From an uncultured Atopobiaceae bacterium (lineage in GTDB: Bacteria; Actinomycetota; Coriobacteriia; Coriobacteriales; Atopobiaceae): a stretch of 64,000 bases of DNA. Below are positions 4,856 through 44,743 of the stretch, in pieces. Made by a program: the position numbers and the translations under genes. Under the pieces are notes generated by a model. The model saw nothing but the letters and a program-made list of their open reading frames with translations, was not told the origin of the DNA and ran no database searches. Location: the NCBI GenBank assembly GCA_947625405.1, contig CANQOF010000002.1:1-64000 (forward strand), written 5' to 3'. Every line of letters starts with the position of its first letter. Position 1 is the first letter of the stretch.

Positions 4856-5734
4856 TTACTCCCTTGAAAGCGCGAGATGCTTTAAATAGTGGCCGTAGTC
4901 CGTTTTGTCGGACTTGGCGGCGAGGGCGAGGAGTTGCGCGCGGGAGATCCAGCCGGCGTGGTAGGCGATTTCCTCGATCGAGCCCACCTTCACGCCGGTG
5001 TGGTACTCCACCACGCGGATGAACTCAGCCGCGTTGGCGAGCGAGGCCACGGTGCCCGTGTCGAACCACGCGAAGCCGCGCCCGAGGTTCTCCACGGAGA
5101 GCTGGCCCTTCTCGAGGTAGATCTGGTTGAGATCGGTGATCTCGAGCTCGCCGCGGTTCGAGGGCTGGAGCTGCGCCGCGTACTCGCAGGCGTGCTCGTC
5201 GTAGAAGTAGAGGCCCGTCACGCAGTAGTCCGAGCGGGGATGGGTGGGCTTCTCCTCGATGGAGATCGCGCGGCCCTCCTCGTCGAATTCCACGACGCCG
5301 AAGCGCTGCGGGTCGTTCACCTCGCATGCGAAGATCGTGGCGCCGCCCTCCTCGGCGCGCGCGCGAGCGCGCTTGAGCATGCCGGTGAAGCCGCCGCCGT
5401 AGAAGATGTTGTCGCCGAGCACGAGCGCCGAGGGCTCGCCGTGTATGAAGTCCTTGCCGATCACAAACGCCTGCGCGAGGCCGTCCGGCGAATCCTGCAC
5501 CTCGTAGCGAAGGGAAATCCCGAGATCGGAGCCGTCGCCGAGGAGCCTGCGGAAGGCGTCGTGGTCCTCGGGGGTGGTGATGATGAGCACCTCGCGAATG
5601 CCCGCCATGAGGAGCACCGAGAGCGAGTAGTAGATCATCGGCTTGTCGTAGACGGGAAGGAGCTGCTTCGACACGGCCTGGGTGAGCGGATGGAGCCTCG
5701 TGCCATGGCCACCGGCGAGCACGATACCCTTCAT
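4856..5734 (-). CDS. rmlA: Glucose-1-phosphate thymidylyltransferase RmlA
   Basis: 292 aa, the usual family length. RmlA joins dTTP and glucose-1-phosphate to give dTDP-glucose, the first step to dTDP-rhamnose for cell-wall polysaccharides. Visible motifs are the nucleotide-binding [11 protein letters not shown] (residues 6-16), K23 in [12 protein letters not shown], the GDNIFYG segment, and FDTGTVASL near the C-terminus. The ATG at 5732-5734 is preceded by GAAAGGAA at a suitable distance; the frame upstream is arginine-rich shadow sequence. No other rml genes are nearby. Confidence 0.95.
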
Positions 5735-5868
5735 GTCCGTTCCTTTCGAACGAGGTGCGTGAACTGCCACGACGCAAGTATACGTGCCGCGCTCCCCCTG
5801 GGCCCTTTTCGAGGCTGCCCCAATGCGGGGCTGCCCCCTTGCCATCCGAGGGCAGTGGAAGGGTGGCG

Positions 5869-6837
5869 CTACGGGTGGCGCGGGAGGCTCGCGCGGTCGG
5901 CTTCGCTCTCGGCTTCGGTGCCGGTGAAATACGGGCTCAGCGTGTCGACGATGAGGCGGACGGCGGAGGGGACCACCCGCGCCTCGAAGCCGCGGACCTC
6001 GCCATCGAGGGGCTCGCCATCCACCTGCATCGGCACGTCCTTCGAGGCGCGCACGCGCACGTGGTGCGCCTTGAAGCTCTCGATTTGGGGGCGCCCGAGG
6101 TTCTTGCCCGAGGGGTCGAGGAAGCCGAAGAGCACGGGCTTCAGGAGCCCCACGGCGTCCGGCGTCTCGAGCACGATCACGTCGAGGAGGCCGTCGTCGA
6201 GGCGGCAATCGGGCACGATCTCGATGTCGCCTTGGATCATCGCGGTGTTCGCCACGAGGCAGGCGATGCCGTCGCGCTCGATCGTCTCGTCGTCAAGCTC
6301 GATCGTGAAGCGCACGACTGGCGGCTGGGGGTTCGAGAGGGCGGCCATGAAGTAGGCCATCTGGCCCATGGCGTGACGGTTCGAGGCGCCCGCGCGCATG
6401 AGCTCGGCGTCAAAGCCCGTGCCCGCCATGAGCGAGAAGCTCTGGCGCCAGGAGCGCCCGCTCGCGTCTTGCCAGGAGATCTTGCCGAGGTCGGCGGAAA
6501 CCGTGCGCCCCTCGCGGCACGCGTGGGCGAGCGCGAAGGGCTCCGCCGCGCAGCCGAGGCTCGCGAAGAAGAGGTTGATCGGCCCCGAGGGGAAGACGCA
6601 CGCCGTGAGGCCGCGATCGGCCACCGCGGCGAGGAGGCGCGAGACCTCGTAGTCGCCGCCCGAGAGCACCACGAGATCGAAGCGCTCGGCGTTCGCGAGC
6701 GCCTCGTCGTCGTCCCACGTCTCGCCGAGCTGGCGGAACAGGCACTCGTCTCCCGCCTCCAGCAGGTAGCGCTGGAACTGGAAGACGGCGTCCGAGGCAT
6801 AGCCCGTGGCTCCGGCGTGGATGATGAGCGTGCGCAT
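5869..6837 (-). CDS. Diacylglycerol-kinase-like lipid kinase with altered glycine motif
   Basis: 322 aa. The fold signature of the DAGK/YegS/sphingosine-kinase family is clear: LVVLSGGD (residues 55-62), PSGPINLFF in place of the usual [27 protein letters not shown] and VDGEPLDG. These enzymes phosphorylate lipids such as diacylglycerol with ATP. The hallmark GGDGT is GGDYE here (60-64) and the second glycine-rich element is also changed, so nucleotide binding or substrate may differ (inference). The ATG has CGGGAG only 2 nt upstream, a tight SD. The next gene on this strand, rmlA, starts 134 nt downstream. Confidence 0.75.
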
Positions 6838-6943
6838 GGCTCCCGGTTTCTCGAGTATCCTTAGGCAATCGCGGCTCGAGCCCTAAGGGTAGCCCTATCG
6901 CCACCCCTTCGGGCAGGGCATTTCCGAGCGTAGGGATGGTGCA

Positions 6944-8071
6944 GTGTTCCTCAAGACCATGGCGGGGGTGGAGAGTTTCCTCGAGCGCGCGCGCAAGGCG
7001 CCGCTCATAGCCGTGGATACGGAGTTTTTGCGCGAGCGGACGTACTTTCCCATGCTGTGCCTCATCCAGCTCGGCACCCACGAGGAGCAGGTGGCCATCG
7101 ACCCCTTGGCCAAGCTCGATCTCTCGGGGGTGGGCGATCTTCTCGCCGACCCCTCCGTGCCCAAGGTCTTCCACGCCTGCTCGCAAGACATCGAGATCCT
7201 CACCCAAGCCTTCGGAAAGCCCCCCGAGAACGTGTTCGACACGCAGATCGCGGCCGCCTTCCTCGGCCAGCGGCTCCAGCTCGGCTACGCGACGCTCGTG
7301 GAGATCTACTGCGGGGTGCACCTCGACAAGGCCGCCTCGCTCACGGACTGGTCGCGCCGTCCGCTCGACGAGGAGCAGCTCTCCTACGCGCTCGACGACG
7401 TGCGCTACCTTCCTCGCATCTACGACAAGATGGTGAAGAGGCTGAAGAGGCAGGGCCGGCTCGGCTGGGTGCTGCCGGAGTGCGAGGCGGCGCGCCTCCA
7501 CGCGATCGCGGTGCAAAATCCCGACGAGGCCTACCTGCACGTCAAGCGCATAGGAGGCCTCACCCGCCGCCAGCTCGGCGTGCTTCGCGAGGTGGCGCGC
7601 GAGCGCGACACGATCGCCAGGCGAAGGGACATCCCGAGGAAGTGGGTCGTGGGCGACGAGGTGCTCGTGGAGATGGCCAAGCGCATGCCCACGAGCGCGG
7701 ACAGGCTGCGGCGTATTCGCGGGACGGCGCAGCTCTCCGAGGGCGACGCGAGCCTCATGGTCCTCGCGGTGAAGCGGGGGAGGGCCTGCCCGGCGGACAG
7801 GCTCCCCGAGGTGCTCCACCGCCAAAAGCCGAGCCAGGAGGCCGAGAGCGCGGTCGATTTGCTCTACGCGCTCCTTCGGTTGATCGCCGAGGAGAACGGC
7901 ATCGCCGCGCCGCTCATCGCGAATAGGGACGACCTCCTCGACCTCGTGAACCAGCGCATGAACCCGCTTGACGAGGGGTGGCGAAGGGAATTGGCGGGCG
8001 AGCCGCTCAGGCGCCTGCTCGCGGGGGAGATCGGCCTCACGGTGAAGGACGGGAAAGTCGTGAGGGTCTAG
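6944..8071 (+). CDS. rnd: Ribonuclease D
   Basis: 375 aa. RNase D is a 3'-5' exoribonuclease that trims tRNA and other stable RNA ends. The DEDDy exonuclease residues are present: D25 and E27 (AVDTEFL), D82 (HACSQDIEIL), and Y148/D152 (YALDDVRYL). HRDC-like helices follow from about residue 205. The start is GTG at 6944, with TAGGGATGG just upstream; an ATG at 6959 is an alternative. It heads a run of same-strand genes (rnd, Zn peptidase, xseA, xseB, HIT, ackA). Confidence 0.93.
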   Translation: MFLKTMAGVESFLERARKAPLIAVDTEFLRERTYFPMLCLIQLGTHEEQVAIDPLAKLDLSGVGDLLADPSVPKVFHACSQDIEILTQAFGKPPENVFDTQIAAAFLGQRLQLGYATLVEIYCGVHLDKAASLTDWSRRPLDEEQLSYALDDVRYLPRIYDKMVKRLKRQGRLGWVLPECEAARLHAIAVQNPDEAYLHVKRIGGLTRRQLGVLREVARERDTIARRRDIPRKWVVGDEVLVEMAKRMPTSADRLRRIRGTAQLSEGDASLMVLAVKRGRACPADRLPEVLHRQKPSQEAESAVDLLYALLRLIAEENGIAAPLIANRDDLLDLVNQRMNPLDEGWRRELAGEPLRRLLAGEIGLTVKDGKVVRV

Positions 8072-8150
8072 GCGCGCCGCAATTGTCGTGGGGATCGCGC
8101 TCTACACTTAACGCCACGGGCCGCATCGCCCGCTCGCAACAGGAGGTTCC

Positions 8151-8846
8151 ATGTACATCCCGATGTTCTACGGCTTCAACTGGAGCTACCTGCTCCTCGT
8201 GATCGTCTCACTCGTCCTCGGCTTCGCCACCCAGGGCTACATCCACTCCACGTACAACACGTGGAGCAAGGTGCCGCTTCCGGGGAGGAAGTCGGGCGCG
8301 CAGGTGGCGCGCGACATGCTCGCCTTCGACGGCGTGGCCGTGGCGGGCATCCTCGCCACCCCGGGCCAGCTCACCGACCACTACGATCCGCGCGACAACA
8401 CGCTCCACCTCTCGAACGAGAACATGAACGGCGGCTCGGTGGCCTCGGCAGCGGTCGCCTGCCACGAGACGGGCCACGCGGTGCAGACGGCCCGCGGCTA
8501 CGTGCCGGGGAAGATCCGCAGCGCGCTCGTGCCGGTCGTGAACTTCTGCTCGTCGCTTTGGATGATCGTCTTCATCATCGGCGCCTTCATGGCCGTCTCC
8601 GGCCTCATGACCCTCGCGATCATCCTCTTCGCGTTCTCCGTGCTCTTCCAGCTCGTCACGTTGCCGGTGGAGTTCGATGCGTCGCATCGCGCGATCGTCT
8701 ACCTGCAGAAGGCCGGCTACGACGACACCACCCTCCGCGGGGCGAAGAAGGTGCTCACGGCCGCGGCGCTCACGTACGTCGCCGCCGCGCTCACCTCCAT
8801 CATGCAGCTCGTCTACCTCCTCGGCCAAACGAATAGGCGCAGGTAG
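8151..8846 (+). CDS. Membrane zinc metallopeptidase (YugP family)
   Basis: 231 aa. Residues 105-109 are HETGH, the zinc-binding HExxH motif, within SAAVACHETGHAVQ. Hydrophobic helices lie at the N-terminus (~11-28) and in the second half (~125-180 and near the C-terminus). The layout and length fit the neutral zinc metallopeptidase family of Bacillus YugP (Zn_peptidase_2). The function in cells is poorly known; it probably acts at the membrane. AGGAGG lies 5 nt before the ATG. The stop is immediately followed by the xseA start, suggesting co-transcription. Confidence 0.88.
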   Translation: MYIPMFYGFNWSYLLLVIVSLVLGFATQGYIHSTYNTWSKVPLPGRKSGAQVARDMLAFDGVAVAGILATPGQLTDHYDPRDNTLHLSNENMNGGSVASAAVACHETGHAVQTARGYVPGKIRSALVPVVNFCSSLWMIVFIIGAFMAVSGLMTLAIILFAFSVLFQLVTLPVEFDASHRAIVYLQKAGYDDTTLRGAKKVLTAAALTYVAAALTSIMQLVYLLGQTNRRR

Positions 8847-10211
8847 ATGCCCAAGGATCCCCTCAGCGTCGCGCGCGCCGTGGAGGTGGCGAAGGCCACC
8901 TTGAACGGCATGGGCACGTTTCGCGTGGTGGGGGAGATCTCGGGCTTCAAGGGCCCGAACGCGCGCAGCGGCCACTGCTACTTCGAGCTCAAGGACGAAG
9001 AGGCGTCCATGAGCGTGATCGTGTGGCGCTCCACCTTCTCCAGGCTCGACTTCGAGTTGAAGGACGGCCTCGAGGTGGAGTTGAGCGGCGTCTTCGACGT
9101 CTACGTGCGCTCCGGGCGCATGTCCTTCATCGCGAGCAAGGTGGAGGTCACGGGCGAGGGGGCGCTTCGCCAGCGCGTGGCGGCCCTCGCGAAGAAGCTC
9201 GCGGCCGAGGGGCTCATGGACGAGGCGGCGAAGCGCAAGGTGCCCGCGTTCTGCGAGCGCGTGTGCGTGGTGACGTCGCTTTCCGGCTCGGTGAAGGACG
9301 ACGTGGTGCGCACCCTCGCGCGGAGGAACCGCCTCGTGGAGGTCGTGCTCTGCTCCTGCAGCGTGCAGGGTGCCGACGCGCCGCCCACGATCATCTCCGC
9401 CCTGAGGGCCGCGGAGGCGCTGGCCCCCGACGCGATCCTCCTCGTGCGCGGGGGCGGCTCCTACGAGGACCTCATGGCCTTCAACGACGAGGCCCTCGCA
9501 CGCGCGATCGCGGCGCTTCGCGTGCCCGTGGTGACGGGCATCGGGCACGAGCCCGACGTGACGATCGCCGATCTCGTGGCCTCGAGGCGCCAATCGACTC
9601 CCACCTCCGCCGCGGAATCGATCGCCCCTCCGATGAGCCAGCTCTCGGAGGCCCTCATGGAGCGCTCGAAGCGGCTCGAGGCGGTGCTCGCCCGCAGGGT
9701 GGACACCGCGCGCGAGGCGCTTTCGGGCTTCGCCACGCGCCTTCCGCTCTCGCTCTCGCAGGGCTTGCGGCAGCGTCGCGAGCTCCTCGCCGCGCTCGCC
9801 ACCTCGCGGGTGATGCGCGATCCCTCGCTTCTCGTCTTCGATCGCGCGCGCGACCTCGACCGCGCGGAGGAGCGCATCGCCGACGCGCTCCCGCGGGGCC
9901 TCGCGCGCCAAGCGGAGCTCCTCGCGCGCCTTGGGGAGCGCGCCGGGCACGGGGCCCAACGCTCGCTCGAGCGGGCCTCGAGCGGCCTCTCCGCCCTCGG
10001 GGCGCAGCTCCAGGCGCTCTCGCCGCTCGCCGTGCTCGGGCGCGGCTATGCCATCGTGAGGGATTCCGAGGGCCACGTGGTCTCGAGCGCCGCGTCGCTC
10101 TCCGAGGGGCAGCGCGTGCGCGCCATCCTCGGCGAGGGCGCGATAGAGGCCGAGGTGCTCCATGTGGACGCGCCCGAGGCGCCCACGCTCTTCAGGGACA
10201 TCCCCGCGTGA
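8847..10211 (+). CDS. xseA: Exodeoxyribonuclease VII large subunit
   Basis: 454 aa. With XseB this subunit degrades single-stranded DNA to oligonucleotides in both directions and acts in repair. An N-terminal OB-fold (~1-95) is followed by the catalytic domain with LVRGGGSYEDLMAFNDE and VTGIGHEPDVTIADLVAS, then a coiled-coil region and a GRGYAIVRD C-terminal motif. The ATG directly abuts the preceding stop, so translation is likely coupled. xseB follows 23 nt downstream. Confidence 0.95.
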   Translation: MPKDPLSVARAVEVAKATLNGMGTFRVVGEISGFKGPNARSGHCYFELKDEEASMSVIVWRSTFSRLDFELKDGLEVELSGVFDVYVRSGRMSFIASKVEVTGEGALRQRVAALAKKLAAEGLMDEAAKRKVPAFCERVCVVTSLSGSVKDDVVRTLARRNRLVEVVLCSCSVQGADAPPTIISALRAAEALAPDAILLVRGGGSYEDLMAFNDEALARAIAALRVPVVTGIGHEPDVTIADLVASRRQSTPTSAAESIAPPMSQLSEALMERSKRLEAVLARRVDTAREALSGFATRLPLSLSQGLRQRRELLAALATSRVMRDPSLLVFDRARDLDRAEERIADALPRGLARQAELLARLGERAGHGAQRSLERASSGLSALGAQLQALSPLAVLGRGYAIVRDSEGHVVSSAASLSEGQRVRAILGEGAIEAEVLHVDAPEAPTLFRDIPA

Positions 10212-37565: not shown

Positions 37566-37620
37566 GCACCCGTGCACGCCTTGGGGCGTGGAGAACGATA
37601 TGAACGACGAGAGGAACGCC

Positions 37621-38514
37621 ATGGTCAAGGCGCAAGCGCCCACGTTCCAAGAGATGATCTTTGCCCTCCAGCGCTATTGGGCCGCCCAAGGCTGCGCGGT
37701 CATGCAGCCCGTGGACACCGAGGTGGGCGCGGGCACGTTCCACACGGCCACCACGCTGCGTTCGCTCGGCCCGAAGCCTTGGGCGGCGTGCTACGCGCAG
37801 CCGTGCCGCCGCCCGACTGACGGCCGCTACGGTGAGAACCCGAACCGCCTCCAGCACTACTACCAGTTCCAGGTGCTCATGAAGCCCTCGCCGGTGAACG
37901 CGCAGGAGCTCTACCTCGGCTCCCTCGCGGAAATCGGCCTCGACGCGACGGCACACGACGTGCGCTTCGTCGAGGACGACTGGGAGAGCCCGACGCTTGG
38001 CGCCTGGGGCCTTGGCTGGGAGGTGTGGATCGACGGCATGGAGGTGACGCAGTTCACCTACTTCCAGCAGGTGGGGGGCATCGAATGCGCGCCCGTGCCC
38101 GTGGAGATCACCTACGGTCTCGAGAGGCTCGCGATGTACGCGCAGGACGTGGATAGCTGCTTCGACGTGGTGTGGTGCCGCGATCCCGAGGGCCGCGAGC
38201 TCACCTACGGCGAGGTCTTCCATGAGAACGAGCGCGAGTTCTCCACCTATAACTTCGAGGTCGCCGATGTGGCGGCGCTCCGCCAGCACTTCGACGACTA
38301 CGAGCTCCAGTGCCAGGCGTGCCTCGATCGCAAGCTCCCGCTTGTGGCCTATGACTGCGCGCTCAAGTGCTCCCACGCGTTCAACCTCCTCGACGCGCGG
38401 GGCGCGCTCTCCCAGACGGAGCGCATGAACTACATCCTGCGGGTGCGCAGCGTGGCGAAGGCCGCCTGCGTGGCGTGGATGGAAGCGAGCGACACGAAAG
38501 CCGAGGTGGCGTAG
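37621..38514 (+). CDS. glyQ: Glycyl-tRNA synthetase alpha subunit
   Basis: 297 aa. Carries the class II catalytic core of the alpha2beta2 enzyme: [58 protein letters not shown]-like [29 protein letters not shown]. The ATG at 37621 is preferred because the protein then begins ([12 protein letters not shown]) like known GlyQ; ATG 37600 and GTG 37588 are in frame. Its stop overlaps the glyS start by 1 nt. Confidence 0.95.
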
Positions 38515-40595
38515 TGATCACGAAAGACTTCCTCCTCGAGATCGGTTCGGAAGAGCTTCCGAGCGCGCCGCTCGACGCCGCGAGCGCAGAGCTCCCGAAG
38601 CTCCTCGGCGCCGCGCTGGACGAAGCGGGCCTTGCCCACGGCGAGATCCGGGTGGTCTCGAGTCCGAGGCGCCTCGCCGCGCTCGTCTCCGATACGGCGT
38701 GTGCCACCGAGGCCTCCACGCAGGTCTTTCGTGGCCCAAAGGTCGCGCAGGCCTTTGACGCCGATGGCAACCCCACCAAAGCCGCGTTGGGCTTTTGCCG
38801 CGGCAAGGGCGTTGACGTGGGCGCGCTCGAGGTCGTCGAGTTCAAGGGCGAGAAGCACGTCGCGGTGACGCTGCGCGAGCCCGCCAAGCAAGCGAGCGAG
38901 CTTCTCGGGCCCCTCTCAGAAGGCGTGATCGCGAAGCTCTCGTGGCCGCGCTCCATGCGCTGGGGCTCCACCACCGAGCGCTATTGCCGGCCCGTGCGTT
39001 GGATCGTCTGCCTCTTCGGCGACGACGTCGTGGACGTGCGCTTCGCGAACATCGCCTCCGGCCGCGCCACGTGGGGCCATCGCGTCCTCGCGCCAGGCGA
39101 GCACGAAGTGCCGAATCCCTCCGCCTACCTCGAGGTGCTCGAACATGCCTTCGTGCTCGACCACGATGCGCGCGCCGAGCGCATTCGCGCGGGCATCTCC
39201 GAGCTCGAGGGGGAGCTTGGGCTCAAGGTGGACACGCCGGCCTCCACGTTCGCCGAGGTCGTGAACCTCTGCGAGTGGCCGACCGTGCTCGCCGGCCACT
39301 TCGACGAGCGCTTCCTCGAGGTGCCGCAGGAGATCATCTGCGAGGCCATGCTCAAGCACCAGCGCTGCTTTCCGGCCTTCAACGCCGACGGAAGCCTTTC
39401 GCGCACTTTCATCCTCGTCTCGAATGGCGATCCCGCGCATAGCGATGCCATCGTCGAGGGCAACGAGCGCGTGGTGCGCGCCCGCCTCGACGACGCCGCG
39501 TTCTTCTTCGCGGAGGACCTCAAGGTCTCGATGGAGGACTGGCTTGAGGACCTCGCGCAGGTCACGTTCCAGGAGAAGCTCGGCACGCTTCGCCAGAAGG
39601 TGGCGCGCATGGAGGAGCTCGCGGGCGAGGTGGCGCGGCTCGCGGGCGAGGATGACGTGACGATCGAGCGGGCCAAGCGCGCGGCGCACCTCTCGAAGGC
39701 CGACCTCGTGTCGCAGGCGGTGGTGGAGTTCACGAGCCAGCAGGGCGTGATGGGCGGCCACTACGCGCGCGCGGCGGGGGAGGACGAGGTGGTCGCGGAG
39801 GCTGTGGCCGAGCACTATCGTCCGCGCTACGCCGGCGACGAGCTTCCGGGAAGCGTCGTGGGCTCTGCGGTGGCCATTTCCGACAAGCTCGACACCATTT
39901 GCGGCATGTTCGCGATCGGCGAGCCGCCGACCGGCTCGAAAGACCCCTTTGCGCAGCGTCGCGGCGCCATCGGCGTGATTCGCCTCCTCGAGCGGATGCC
40001 GAGCGCCTCCCTTCGCGCGCTCATCGACACCGCGCTCGGGCTCTACCAAGCGCAAGGACTCGAATTCGATCGCGCCGAAGTCGCGCGGGCGGTGGCGGAC
40101 TTCTTCTCCGGGCGCCTCCAGACGATGGCGAGGGAGGAGGGCGCGCAGCCCGATGCGGTGGCGGCGATCGCCCACACGGGCGTCGTCGATCCCGCGGAGT
40201 TCCTCGCGCGCGTCCGCGCCCTCGAGGCGGCGCGTGCGGAGGCGGCCGAGCTCATGGACGACCTCGCGCAGGCGTTCCTGCGCGCGACGCACCTCGCCGA
40301 TCCCTCGCTGGGCACCGACGTGGAACGCGAGGCCCTTGAAGGCGCCGAGCTTTCGCTCTACGAGGCCACTGAGGCCGCGGAGCGCGACGTGGACGCCGCG
40401 CTCGCCGACAATCGCTTCGCGGACGCCCTCGCGGCGCTCGCCGCGCTTCGCGGGCCGATCGATCGCTTCTTCGAGGACGTGCTCGTGATGGACGAGGACC
40501 CGCGCGCGCGTACTCGCCGCCTTGTGCTGCTCAATCGCTTTGCCGCGCCCTTCGCGGGCGTGGCGGACTTCGCCGCGCTTGCGAAGACGTCGTAA
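38514..40595 (+). CDS. glyS: Glycyl-tRNA synthetase beta subunit
   Basis: 693 aa. Binds tRNA-Gly and completes the tetramer. Conserved features include FLLEIGSEELP at the start, ISDKLDTICGMFAIGEPPTGSKDPFAQRRGAIGVIRL, and the C-terminal FFEDVLVMDEDPRARTRRLVLL segment. The start is GTG at 38514-38516, sharing a base with the glyQ TAG, which fixes it. Confidence 0.95.
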   Translation: MITKDFLLEIGSEELPSAPLDAASAELPKLLGAALDEAGLAHGEIRVVSSPRRLAALVSDTACATEASTQVFRGPKVAQAFDADGNPTKAALGFCRGKGVDVGALEVVEFKGEKHVAVTLREPAKQASELLGPLSEGVIAKLSWPRSMRWGSTTERYCRPVRWIVCLFGDDVVDVRFANIASGRATWGHRVLAPGEHEVPNPSAYLEVLEHAFVLDHDARAERIRAGISELEGELGLKVDTPASTFAEVVNLCEWPTVLAGHFDERFLEVPQEIICEAMLKHQRCFPAFNADGSLSRTFILVSNGDPAHSDAIVEGNERVVRARLDDAAFFFAEDLKVSMEDWLEDLAQVTFQEKLGTLRQKVARMEELAGEVARLAGEDDVTIERAKRAAHLSKADLVSQAVVEFTSQQGVMGGHYARAAGEDEVVAEAVAEHYRPRYAGDELPGSVVGSAVAISDKLDTICGMFAIGEPPTGSKDPFAQRRGAIGVIRLLERMPSASLRALIDTALGLYQAQGLEFDRAEVARAVADFFSGRLQTMAREEGAQPDAVAAIAHTGVVDPAEFLARVRALEAARAEAAELMDDLAQAFLRATHLADPSLGTDVEREALEGAELSLYEATEAAERDVDAALADNRFADALAALAALRGPIDRFFEDVLVMDEDPRARTRRLVLLNRFAAPFAGVADFAALAKTS

Positions 40596-40604
40596 GGCAT
40601 GCTC

Positions 40605-40631
40605 GATGCCCCCGCCCACGGGCGGGGCATC
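40605..40631 (+). terminator. Hairpin after glyS
   Basis: GATG and CCCCGCC pair with GGCGGGG and CATC (40605-40616 with 40621-40631, one bulged C). No T run follows; weak terminator or mRNA-stabilising hairpin. Confidence 0.5.
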
Positions 40632-40726
40632 TCCGATGGGAGACCGTCTGCCCAATCCCGCGCGGTCTCGGCGCGTTCATGGACTACCATCGTCGTAGCG
40701 ACGAGCGACCTTTTTAGGAGGAGCCT

Positions 40727-41104
40727 GTGCGAACCTTCGATTCCGACGACATCGAATACTGCGACGATTGCGCCCTTATCCACGTGATTTCCGATTCCGA
40801 GGGCGACACCGCGGCGGGCGTCGTCGCGGCTGCGGCGTCGCAGTTCGACGTGGGCTGCGTCAAGATCTCCCGCTTGCCGAAGGTGCGGAGCCTTGATCAG
40901 GTGATCGCCTATCTCGACGAGAACCAGACCAGCGAGCATCCCACGGCCGTCTTCCACACGATCGTGGACACGGACCTTCGCAACGACATCCGTCGCGAGC
41001 TCGAGGCGCGCCAGATCTTCTCGATCGACATCATCGGCCCCGCCATCAACGTCATCTCCACCCTCACGCAGTCCGACCCGAAGAACATCCCCGGCGGCGT
41101 GTAG
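40727..41104 (+). CDS. PPDK-regulator-like protein, N-terminal domain only
   Basis: 125 aa. ALIHVISDSEGDTAAGVVAAAASQF and the following ~80 residues match the N-terminal half of the bifunctional PPDK/PEP-synthase regulatory proteins (DUF299, ~270 aa), which phosphorylate and dephosphorylate the target Thr. The P-loop half of that family (GVSR.GKTPTS) is missing: the frame ends in TAG and a strong terminator follows. The start is GTG with TTAGGAGGAGCCT upstream. It lies 245 bp before ppdK, the likely partner. Whether this short form is active, acts as a sensor only, or has its other half elsewhere cannot be seen. Confidence 0.75.
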   Translation: MRTFDSDDIEYCDDCALIHVISDSEGDTAAGVVAAAASQFDVGCVKISRLPKVRSLDQVIAYLDENQTSEHPTAVFHTIVDTDLRNDIRRELEARQIFSIDIIGPAINVISTLTQSDPKNIPGGV

Positions 41105-41136
41105 TAGGCGAGCGCCCTCATACGATGCGTTGCGAA

Positions 41137-41169
41137 GCGCCCTCTCCGCGTGCCGGGGAGGGTGTTTTT
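41137..41169 (+). terminator. Terminator between the short regulator gene and ppdK
   Basis: A 9-bp stem (41140-41148 with 41154-41162, one T-G pair), extendable outward, followed by TTTTT at 41165-41169. Confidence 0.85.
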
Positions 41170-41230
41170 CTCGAGCCCCGCGCCTCCTCCCGCTTAGCTG
41201 ATGGAGCGTGCGCGATGGGCTCGAAATCGT

Positions 41231-41259
41231 TTGATGAAGCACCCCCTATGGGCTAGCAT
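41231..41259 (+). promoter_or_regulatory. Probable ppdK promoter
   Basis: TTGATG (41231-41236) and TAGCAT (41254-41259) are spaced by 17 bp, ~90 nt before the start codon and just after the upstream terminator. Confidence 0.6.
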
Positions 41260-41348
41260 TCTTTCGACTGTGTTCGACCCGGACGCTGCGCCAAGGCGTC
41301 CTCATAGGAGGCCGTCAGATGTGGCGCGCCCAAGGAAGAAGGAGCGGT

Positions 41349-44111
<2,763 letters not shown>

Positions 44112-44138
44112 CGCTCGAAGCTCGCACGCCTCGAGAGC

Positions 44139-44172
44139 AAAGGAGGGGTCGCTCGCGCGGCCCCTCCTTTTT
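44139..44172 (+). terminator. ppdK terminator
   Basis: A 14-bp stem (44139-44152 with 44157-44170, one G-T pair) with a TCGC loop ends in TTTTT. Confidence 0.9.
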
Positions 44173-44197
44173 ACGTGACGATTTCGTCCTCGGAAAT

Positions 44198-44743
44198 CTA
44201 CTGCAGCGTGAACGTCTTCTGGGCGAGGAGCTCATCTCCGAAGCTGAAGAGCTCTCCCACCTCCACGTCGACGGGAGAGGTGGTGTCCTGCAAGTTGTAC
44301 AGGAGTTCGCAGGAGCTGGTGGCGCCGGGCTTCACCTTCTGCATGTAGCCGCCTGATTCATAATCGGTGCCAAAGCCCATAGAGCATTCGACGCCGTTTT
44401 GGTAGACGGTTTCGTTGCATGCGGTGGCAAACGATTGCGTTTCATCTGAGTTGTTGGTGAAGGTGTAGGTGATCACGACCGCGGGATTTCCATCGTAGTC
44501 GGTGGTCACGCGCGCGTTGTCGATACTCACGACATAGGGGCTGTCAGTAGCGGGGGCGGGCTGTCCCTCGGACTCATCGGTGTTCTCGGCTTGATCCGTG
44601 GTTTGGGCGGGTTCGGCGATGCTTGCCTGCTCATCTTGAGAGGAATTGCCTGAGGAAGCCGAGCTTCCGCATCCGTAGAGTGGCGTGGTAATGCAAGCTG
44701 CGGCTATGAGGGCCAAAAGGCCATTCGCGAGAATACGTTTCAC
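44198..44743 (-). CDS. Lipoprotein with DUF5067-like domain
   Basis: 181 aa. The start is GTG at 44743 with AAGGAG 5-6 nt upstream. A signal sequence ends at PLYGC, a likely lipobox. A Ser/Gln/Glu/Thr-rich linker (~30-70) leads to a ~110-aa beta domain: YVVSIDNARVTTDYDGNPAVVITYTFTNNSDETQSF..., QNGVECSMG, KPGATSSCELLYNL, TSPVDVEVGELFSF. This agrees with DUF5067, found in lipoproteins of Firmicutes and Coriobacteriia and of unknown function. It lies 138 bp downstream of a Ser/Thr kinase gene on the same strand. Confidence 0.8.
   Translation of the reverse strand: MKRILANGLLALIAAACITTPLYGCGSSASSGNSSQDEQASIAEPAQTTDQAENTDESEGQPAPATDSPYVVSIDNARVTTDYDGNPAVVITYTFTNNSDETQSFATACNETVYQNGVECSMGFGTDYESGGYMQKVKPGATSSCELLYNLQDTTSPVDVEVGELFSFGDELLAQKTFTLQ

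Follow-up and report, generated by a model that had tools for sequence, protein, structure and literature searches.

A solo N-terminal domain of the DUF299 regulator, conserved beside ppdK in Atopobiaceae, is probably a small sensor

Introduction

Pyruvate phosphate dikinase (PPDK) and PEP synthase are regulated by proteins of the DUF299 type, which Pfam describes as the Kinase-PPPase family PF03618. According to the part of a review that treats the PPDK regulator PDRP (PMC9138534, section 8.2), its N- and C-terminal domains share one fold and each carries a P-loop, a name that the review also gives to the glycine-rich loop of the N-domain. The same portion of the review places a single active site for both reactions in the C-domain, notes that this domain has been superposed on HPr kinase/phosphorylase, and mentions a proposed allosteric part for the N-domain. 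As presented there, "allosteric" is so far only a proposal for what the N-terminal half of this PPDK/PEP-synthase regulator does. Throughout this work, NTD denotes the N-terminal domain and CTD the catalytic C-terminal domain of the PF03618/DUF299 regulator. In the maize PDRP structure, Jiang et al. in 2016 reportedly found AMP at the N-domain loop, and this loop is said to have been suggested to take part in the contact with PPDK.

Here we describe a gene from a 64-kb window, meaning the whole stretch of DNA that was analysed, whose product corresponds to the NTD of this regulator. It resembles PDRP/PSRP (DUF299, PF03618, NF003742) in its NTD homology over the whole length, its ppdK neighbour and its predicted fold, which is that of the maize PDRP NTD, but differs in being without the entire catalytic CTD. 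Its likeness to HPr kinase/phosphorylase is one of concept, namely that a carbon enzyme is controlled according to the energy state; the structural parallel belongs to the PDRP C-domain, which is absent from the solo NTD. Stand-alone allosteric sensor domains such as the CBS and ACT proteins take up a metabolite and influence an enzyme through direct contact. They are an unrelated family, and the solo NTD would resemble them in principle only, if our reading is right. As far as literature listings go, an NTD-only DUF299 form in one bacterial family is unreported: a search of open-licence papers, which is no proof of absence, returned no report of a solo NTD.

Results

The solo NTD gene is located at positions 40727–41104 of the plus strand and encodes 125 residues, from a GTG start to a TAG stop. 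A Shine-Dalgarno sequence, AGGAGG, precedes it at 40716–40721 (+), and comparable ribosome sites are found in front of the solo genes of relatives. Its assignment to the DUF299/PDRP regulators is based on PF03618, alignments and a structural model. Residues 18–123 match profile positions 1–104 of the 256 positions of PF03618 with 67 bits (cut-off 23.5; E 2.7e-18), and this ORF is the single PF03618 match in the window genome (G000; 1.72 Mb, 98.5% complete). Against the NCBIfam profile NF003742, the protein scores 63.8 bits, below the cut-off of 225, whereas the full-length relative L153 reaches 271.4. The ORF stops at the domain border, and the CTD motifs HDDG and GVSRTSKT(P) are absent from the 125-residue protein. 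Because two defining features are lacking, the CTD and a score above the NCBIfam cut-off, the solo NTD is by its sequence not a PDRP kinase/phosphorylase, though it may work like part of a PDRP. The profile match, together with ppdK downstream, bears out the preliminary description of this locus as a regulator cut to its NTD beside ppdK.

The predicted model of the protein (pLDDT 88.3, pTM 0.81) contains four beta-alpha units in order, and the 125 residues are predicted to make up a whole Rossmann-like domain, as in the NTD of maize PDRP. The PDB entry that matches the model best by far, 5d0n, has the title "maize PDRP bound with AMP". The two were aligned by Foldseek with E 1.3e-5 and TMq 0.76, and by VIA with Z 13.4 and an rmsd of 2.9 over 112 residues (chain 128–251), the next best match having Z 8.2. 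A putative nucleotide/phosphate-binding loop, S-D-x-x-G-x-T, occupies codons 22–28 (40790–40810, +) between strand 1 (E16–22) and helix 1 (H27–37). Two further conserved sites are found at strand ends: His-Thr at codons 77–78 (40955–40960, +) at the end of strand 3, with T78 in all forms and H77 in all solo types, and an Asp at codon 101 (41027–41029, +) at the end of strand 4, conserved across all forms. S22, D23, G26, T28, T78 and D101 are each the commonest residue, in 91–100% of rows, in every one of four form groups (35 full-length rows and 55, 5 and 7 rows of solo types I, II and III, respectively; type I is linked to ppdK, and types II and III are described below). The pocket residues are thus intact in the solo forms and, judged from secondary structure, the conserved loop and strand-end residues would lie on the side of such a sheet where ligands usually bind. 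The protein had been called P-loop-free, which holds for the catalytic P-loop of the lost CTD but not for the NTD, which keeps its conserved glycine-rich loop SDxxGxT.

This loop bears on the idea of a minimal kinase/phosphorylase, in which a homodimer of the solo NTD would still catalyse phosphoryl transfer on PPDK by means of its own P-loop-like loop. Conservation of the loop and the position of the gene beside ppdK are compatible with such an enzyme, as is the single fold with one P-loop per domain reported for PDRP in the part of the review cited above (PMC9138534). However, the NTD loop reads SDxxGxT and not GVSRTSKTP as in the CTD, neither HDDG nor GVSRTSKT is present, and according to the same part of the review (PMC9138534) the only active site is that of the C-domain. 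We therefore regard a minimal enzyme as very improbable.

The presumed partner gene, ppdK, extends over 41319–44111 (+) as the longest ORF; an ATG at 41349, preceded by AAGGAG, is a likelier start than that of the longest ORF. The GGKTSH loop of its product is intact, with the Thr-Ser-His codons at 42774–42782 (+). Numbered from 41319, the loop contains Thr486 and His488, taken as the regulatory Thr and the catalytic His by homology to maize Thr527 and His529, which are given in the part of the review that covers PPDK (PMC9138534). The intact Thr and His, to which attention had been drawn earlier, are uninformative on the regulator, because all of the 56 PPDKs compared have the loop SHGGKTSHAAV, those with a full-length and those with a solo regulator alike; as a discriminator between the two it was discarded as useless.

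Between the solo gene and ppdK, a stem-loop followed by a U-run resembles an intrinsic terminator (41134–41168, +; −25.7 kcal/mol, z −2.88). Given this terminator-like hairpin, the two genes need not be co-transcribed. What had been described as a strong terminator is therefore present as a hairpin with a U-run, but it is missing from the terminators returned by a simple consensus scan. Upstream of the solo gene are glyQ and glyS (37588–40595, +), named from their translations, and these genes also precede the regulator gene in other loci, such as L113. In genus g5 (L113 4582–5415 and L114 5096–5929), a divergent full-length regulator stands behind glyS, with ppdK elsewhere in the genome. Among the solo loci in named records, ppdK is directly downstream on the same strand in 70 of 73, with a gap of 89–466 bp (median 189). 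As for the other three, one has ppdK in the same orientation at a distance of about 1.1 kb downstream, the sequence ends 554 bp past the solo gene in another, and the third shows no ppdK within nearly 6 kb downstream.

The 125-residue query matched an NTD in 132 of 140 Atopobiaceae genomes. The number of residues following the domain is bimodal, with 97 distinct solo forms (defined as having at most 15), 15 full-length forms with at least 152, and none between. These counts were made on fetched loci after leaving out the Collinsella record L225, dropping one open or short match and merging 66 duplicates. The named records (L149–L228) overlap with the genomes (G numbers), and the two sets are not independent. 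Named isolates among the family records belong to Olsenella, Thermophilibacter, Parafannyhessea, Tractidigestivibacter, Olegusella and Atopobium; the closest relatives of the window are MAGs of uncultured bacteria. Within the genus of the window, g1, the short form occurs in five of six genomes and a real CTD match in none; the sixth genome, G303, is 69% complete and gave no match. The short form is thus conserved in related genomes, a point that the preliminary description had left to be checked. In a sample of the phylum, all 38 PF03618 matches outside Atopobiaceae are in frames of at least 268 residues, which fits a full-length form outside the family. Among the matches listed for the class outside Atopobiaceae, frames are likewise full-length, except for a 119-residue frame at a contig end (G097:C25) and a 208-residue frame (G123:C103).

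It had been argued beforehand that a C-terminal half just downstream in close relatives would mark the gene of the window as simply truncated. No such half was found in g1, but the sister genera g2, g7 and g16 have a full-length regulator gene at the same place, from which we conclude that the short form arose by losing its C-terminal half. Such an origin would also suit a degenerating remnant or an assembly or sequencing artefact without function. Against this, dN/dS is 0.03–0.26 in all 18 pairs of type I genes, and the 97 distinct solo sequences have clean ends and come from named isolates and single-contig genomes as well. Type III pairs gave dN/dS values of 0.17–0.30 (3 of 3), and the one type II pair gave 0.43. 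Judged by these ratios, the solo genes are under purifying selection, and the solo form is therefore not a dead fragment but has been kept under selection since the CTD was lost. An assembly or sequencing error is ruled out by the 97 distinct sequences, in agreement with the earlier view that no sequencing frameshift is involved, and we give a functionless remnant or artefact next to no credence.

To locate the missing half, a CTD query from a full-length relative was used. It found no match in G000. A CTD remnant was likewise not found in the window, where the best hits near the solo gene (40301–44300; E 0.20) and across the whole 64 kb (E 0.23) are at chance level. Of the 140 Atopobiaceae genomes, 15 contain a CTD (E 1e-36 or better), always in one frame with an NTD; six further matches with E 0.01–0.1 were taken as chance-level noise. 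With an NTD in 132 genomes and a fused CTD in 15, 117 genomes bear an NTD without a detectable CTD, and none of these 117 yielded a separate one. The catalytic half was thus not found, and neither was the second protein encoded elsewhere that the preliminary description had considered. A split regulator, with the catalytic half supplied in trans by another gene, would have some precedent, since two-domain enzymes are in general commonly split and inter-protomer domain contacts (Cys128–Cys417) are reported for maize PDRP1 in the part of PMC6019023 that describes them. The empty result in G000, the exclusively fused copies, the chance-level E values of the other six matches and the presence of several single-contig assemblies among the genomes searched all weigh against it. 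On the CTD search of the 140 genomes we rejected a split gene in trans, and we consider this arrangement highly improbable.

To assess how often the CTD was lost, we compared trees of PPDK and of the NTD. The PPDK tree was built from the 56 loci for which over 800 residues were aligned. It unites the window genus with the full-length lineages g7, g16 and g2 (support 98) and separates it from the other 31 solo rows. One clade holding all solo PPDKs and that of L100 was just rejected (p-AU 0.044), and without L100 the value was p 5e-7. For the NTD tree, 102 of 159 rows were kept after dropping within-family rows more than 0.93 alike and thinning outgroup rows. One clade for all solo NTDs gave p 0.034 and a single clade for type I alone was not rejected (p-AU 0.177). 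The NTD alignment is short, at 129 columns, and the p-values carry limited weight. On these trees, the ppdK-linked gene probably underwent at least two CTD losses, and types II and III probably lost the domain independently of these.

Two full-length regulators with a divergent C-domain, L100 (841–1680) and L099 (1245–2093), occur in MAGs and nest among the solo lineages, L099 by its N-domain and L100, from a MAG that is 79% complete, by its PPDK. Their nesting may reflect a regain, a transfer, a late loss elsewhere or contamination.

In the family, 22 genomes hold two or more NTD matches. Twelve copies with no ppdK nearby were assigned to type II, to type III or to no class; the genes around them were called roughly, by a codon score. 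Type II copies lie less than 2 kb from a DeoC-type aldolase gene in five of five loci (L075, L084, L091, L097 and L123), some of which also have transaldolase-like, RpiB-like or DUF218 genes or a GntR-like regulator nearby; the neighbour families were tested on L075 (4181–8938) and L097. Type III copies follow a radical-SAM glycyl-radical-enzyme activase in six of six loci (L080, L089, L110, L111, L126 and L127), the activase being only partly called in L111 and L127. On the other side, genes for a PFL-like (PFL2-like) glycyl radical enzyme and a fructose-6-phosphate-aldolase-like protein are divergently oriented, with neighbour families tested on L110, whose positions 5188–9856 provide the reference arrangement. 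The type III loci may be linked to radical-mediated glycolysis. G304 has, besides a type II copy, a full-length type I copy at another locus, and in G347 (90% complete) a type III solo form was found but no ppdK. PPDK is therefore not the partner of every solo form, and from these two genomes we conclude that types II and III are paralogues, probably with tasks of their own.

Among good-quality Atopobiaceae genomes, an NTD is present in 100 of 101, and ppdK likewise in 100 of 101. Four genomes, G044, G056, G173 and G240 of genera g4 and g21, contain both genes in unlinked positions. Of the 40 genomes of the class without PF03618, 20 were listed by name; G248 and G287, which belong to the family itself, were left out, and 15 of the 18 others are also missing ppdK. 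As a rule, regulator and enzyme are thus either both retained or both missing, and in this the solo NTD resembles the regulator. Three genomes of the same order as the window (G162, G184 and G188) contain ppdK and no PF03618 match; PPDK can therefore persist without a regulator of the PF03618 family.

These patterns also bear on whether the solo NTD has left PPDK regulation altogether, for instance for moonlighting metabolite binding or transcriptional co-regulation, with its place beside ppdK being inherited synteny. The paralogous solo forms near deoC/transaldolase and glycyl-radical-enzyme genes, as well as the type III copy of G347, would fit such a departure. Yet the genomes in which the two genes are unlinked (g4 and g21) have retained type I along with ppdK, and elsewhere in the class ppdK is mostly gone where the regulator is, as in the 15 of 18 genomes above. 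A departure from PPDK regulation is a possibility to be taken seriously, and one that we hold to be unlikely.

Discussion

The non-catalytic half of the regulator is retained next to ppdK and also beside other sugar-metabolism genes, and is therefore probably a small sensor rather than a switch enzyme. More specifically, we hypothesize that the solo NTD is a small, non-catalytic regulatory protein that senses a nucleotide or phosphate and acts on PPDK by binding, which on balance we think is the case. Kinase/phosphorylase activity of the solo NTD is very unlikely. In the proposed mechanism, the NTD pocket would bind an adenylate, with AMP as the best guess, or another phosphorylated small molecule. 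Occupancy of the pocket would then decide whether the solo NTD binds PPDK and alters its activity without phosphorylation. Compared with the classical regulator, the energy-state sensor and the docking part would have been retained and the covalent switch dropped. More tentatively, the paralogues in other operons might apply the same sensor to other carbon enzymes.

Two comparisons were made in relation to this mechanism and to the loss of the CTD. Amino-acid changes common to the PPDKs of both solo lineages number 9, against 0–7 in six control sets of one or two rows each, a slight excess that does not point clearly to altered docking. A pyruvate kinase was found in 136 of the 140 genomes, in those with solo and those with full-length regulators alike. 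This rules out that the CTD was lost for want of pyruvate kinase, and no simple metabolic explanation of the loss emerged.

With the NTD detached from its kinase half, apparently on more than one occasion, and retained by selection, the role of this domain becomes testable on a protein of 125 residues. If the solo NTD detects AMP and works through contact, a simple sensor has replaced a covalent switch at the PEP–pyruvate node in gut and oral bacteria, and reading "kinase/pyrophosphorylase" from PF03618 would misannotate the protein in more than a hundred species.

A broader proposal is that the solo NTDs constitute a new family of small sensors of the energy state, produced by repeated CTD loss in Atopobiaceae and acting by ligand-dependent binding, in which type I would serve PPDK, type II the deoC/transaldolase cluster and type III the glycyl radical enzyme and its activase. 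We put this forward as a rather unlikely extension.

Among the copies distant from ppdK, L079 carries a solo N-domain gene of 139 residues (4952–5368, −) with neither type II nor type III neighbours, and this gene is one of three copies in genome G290.
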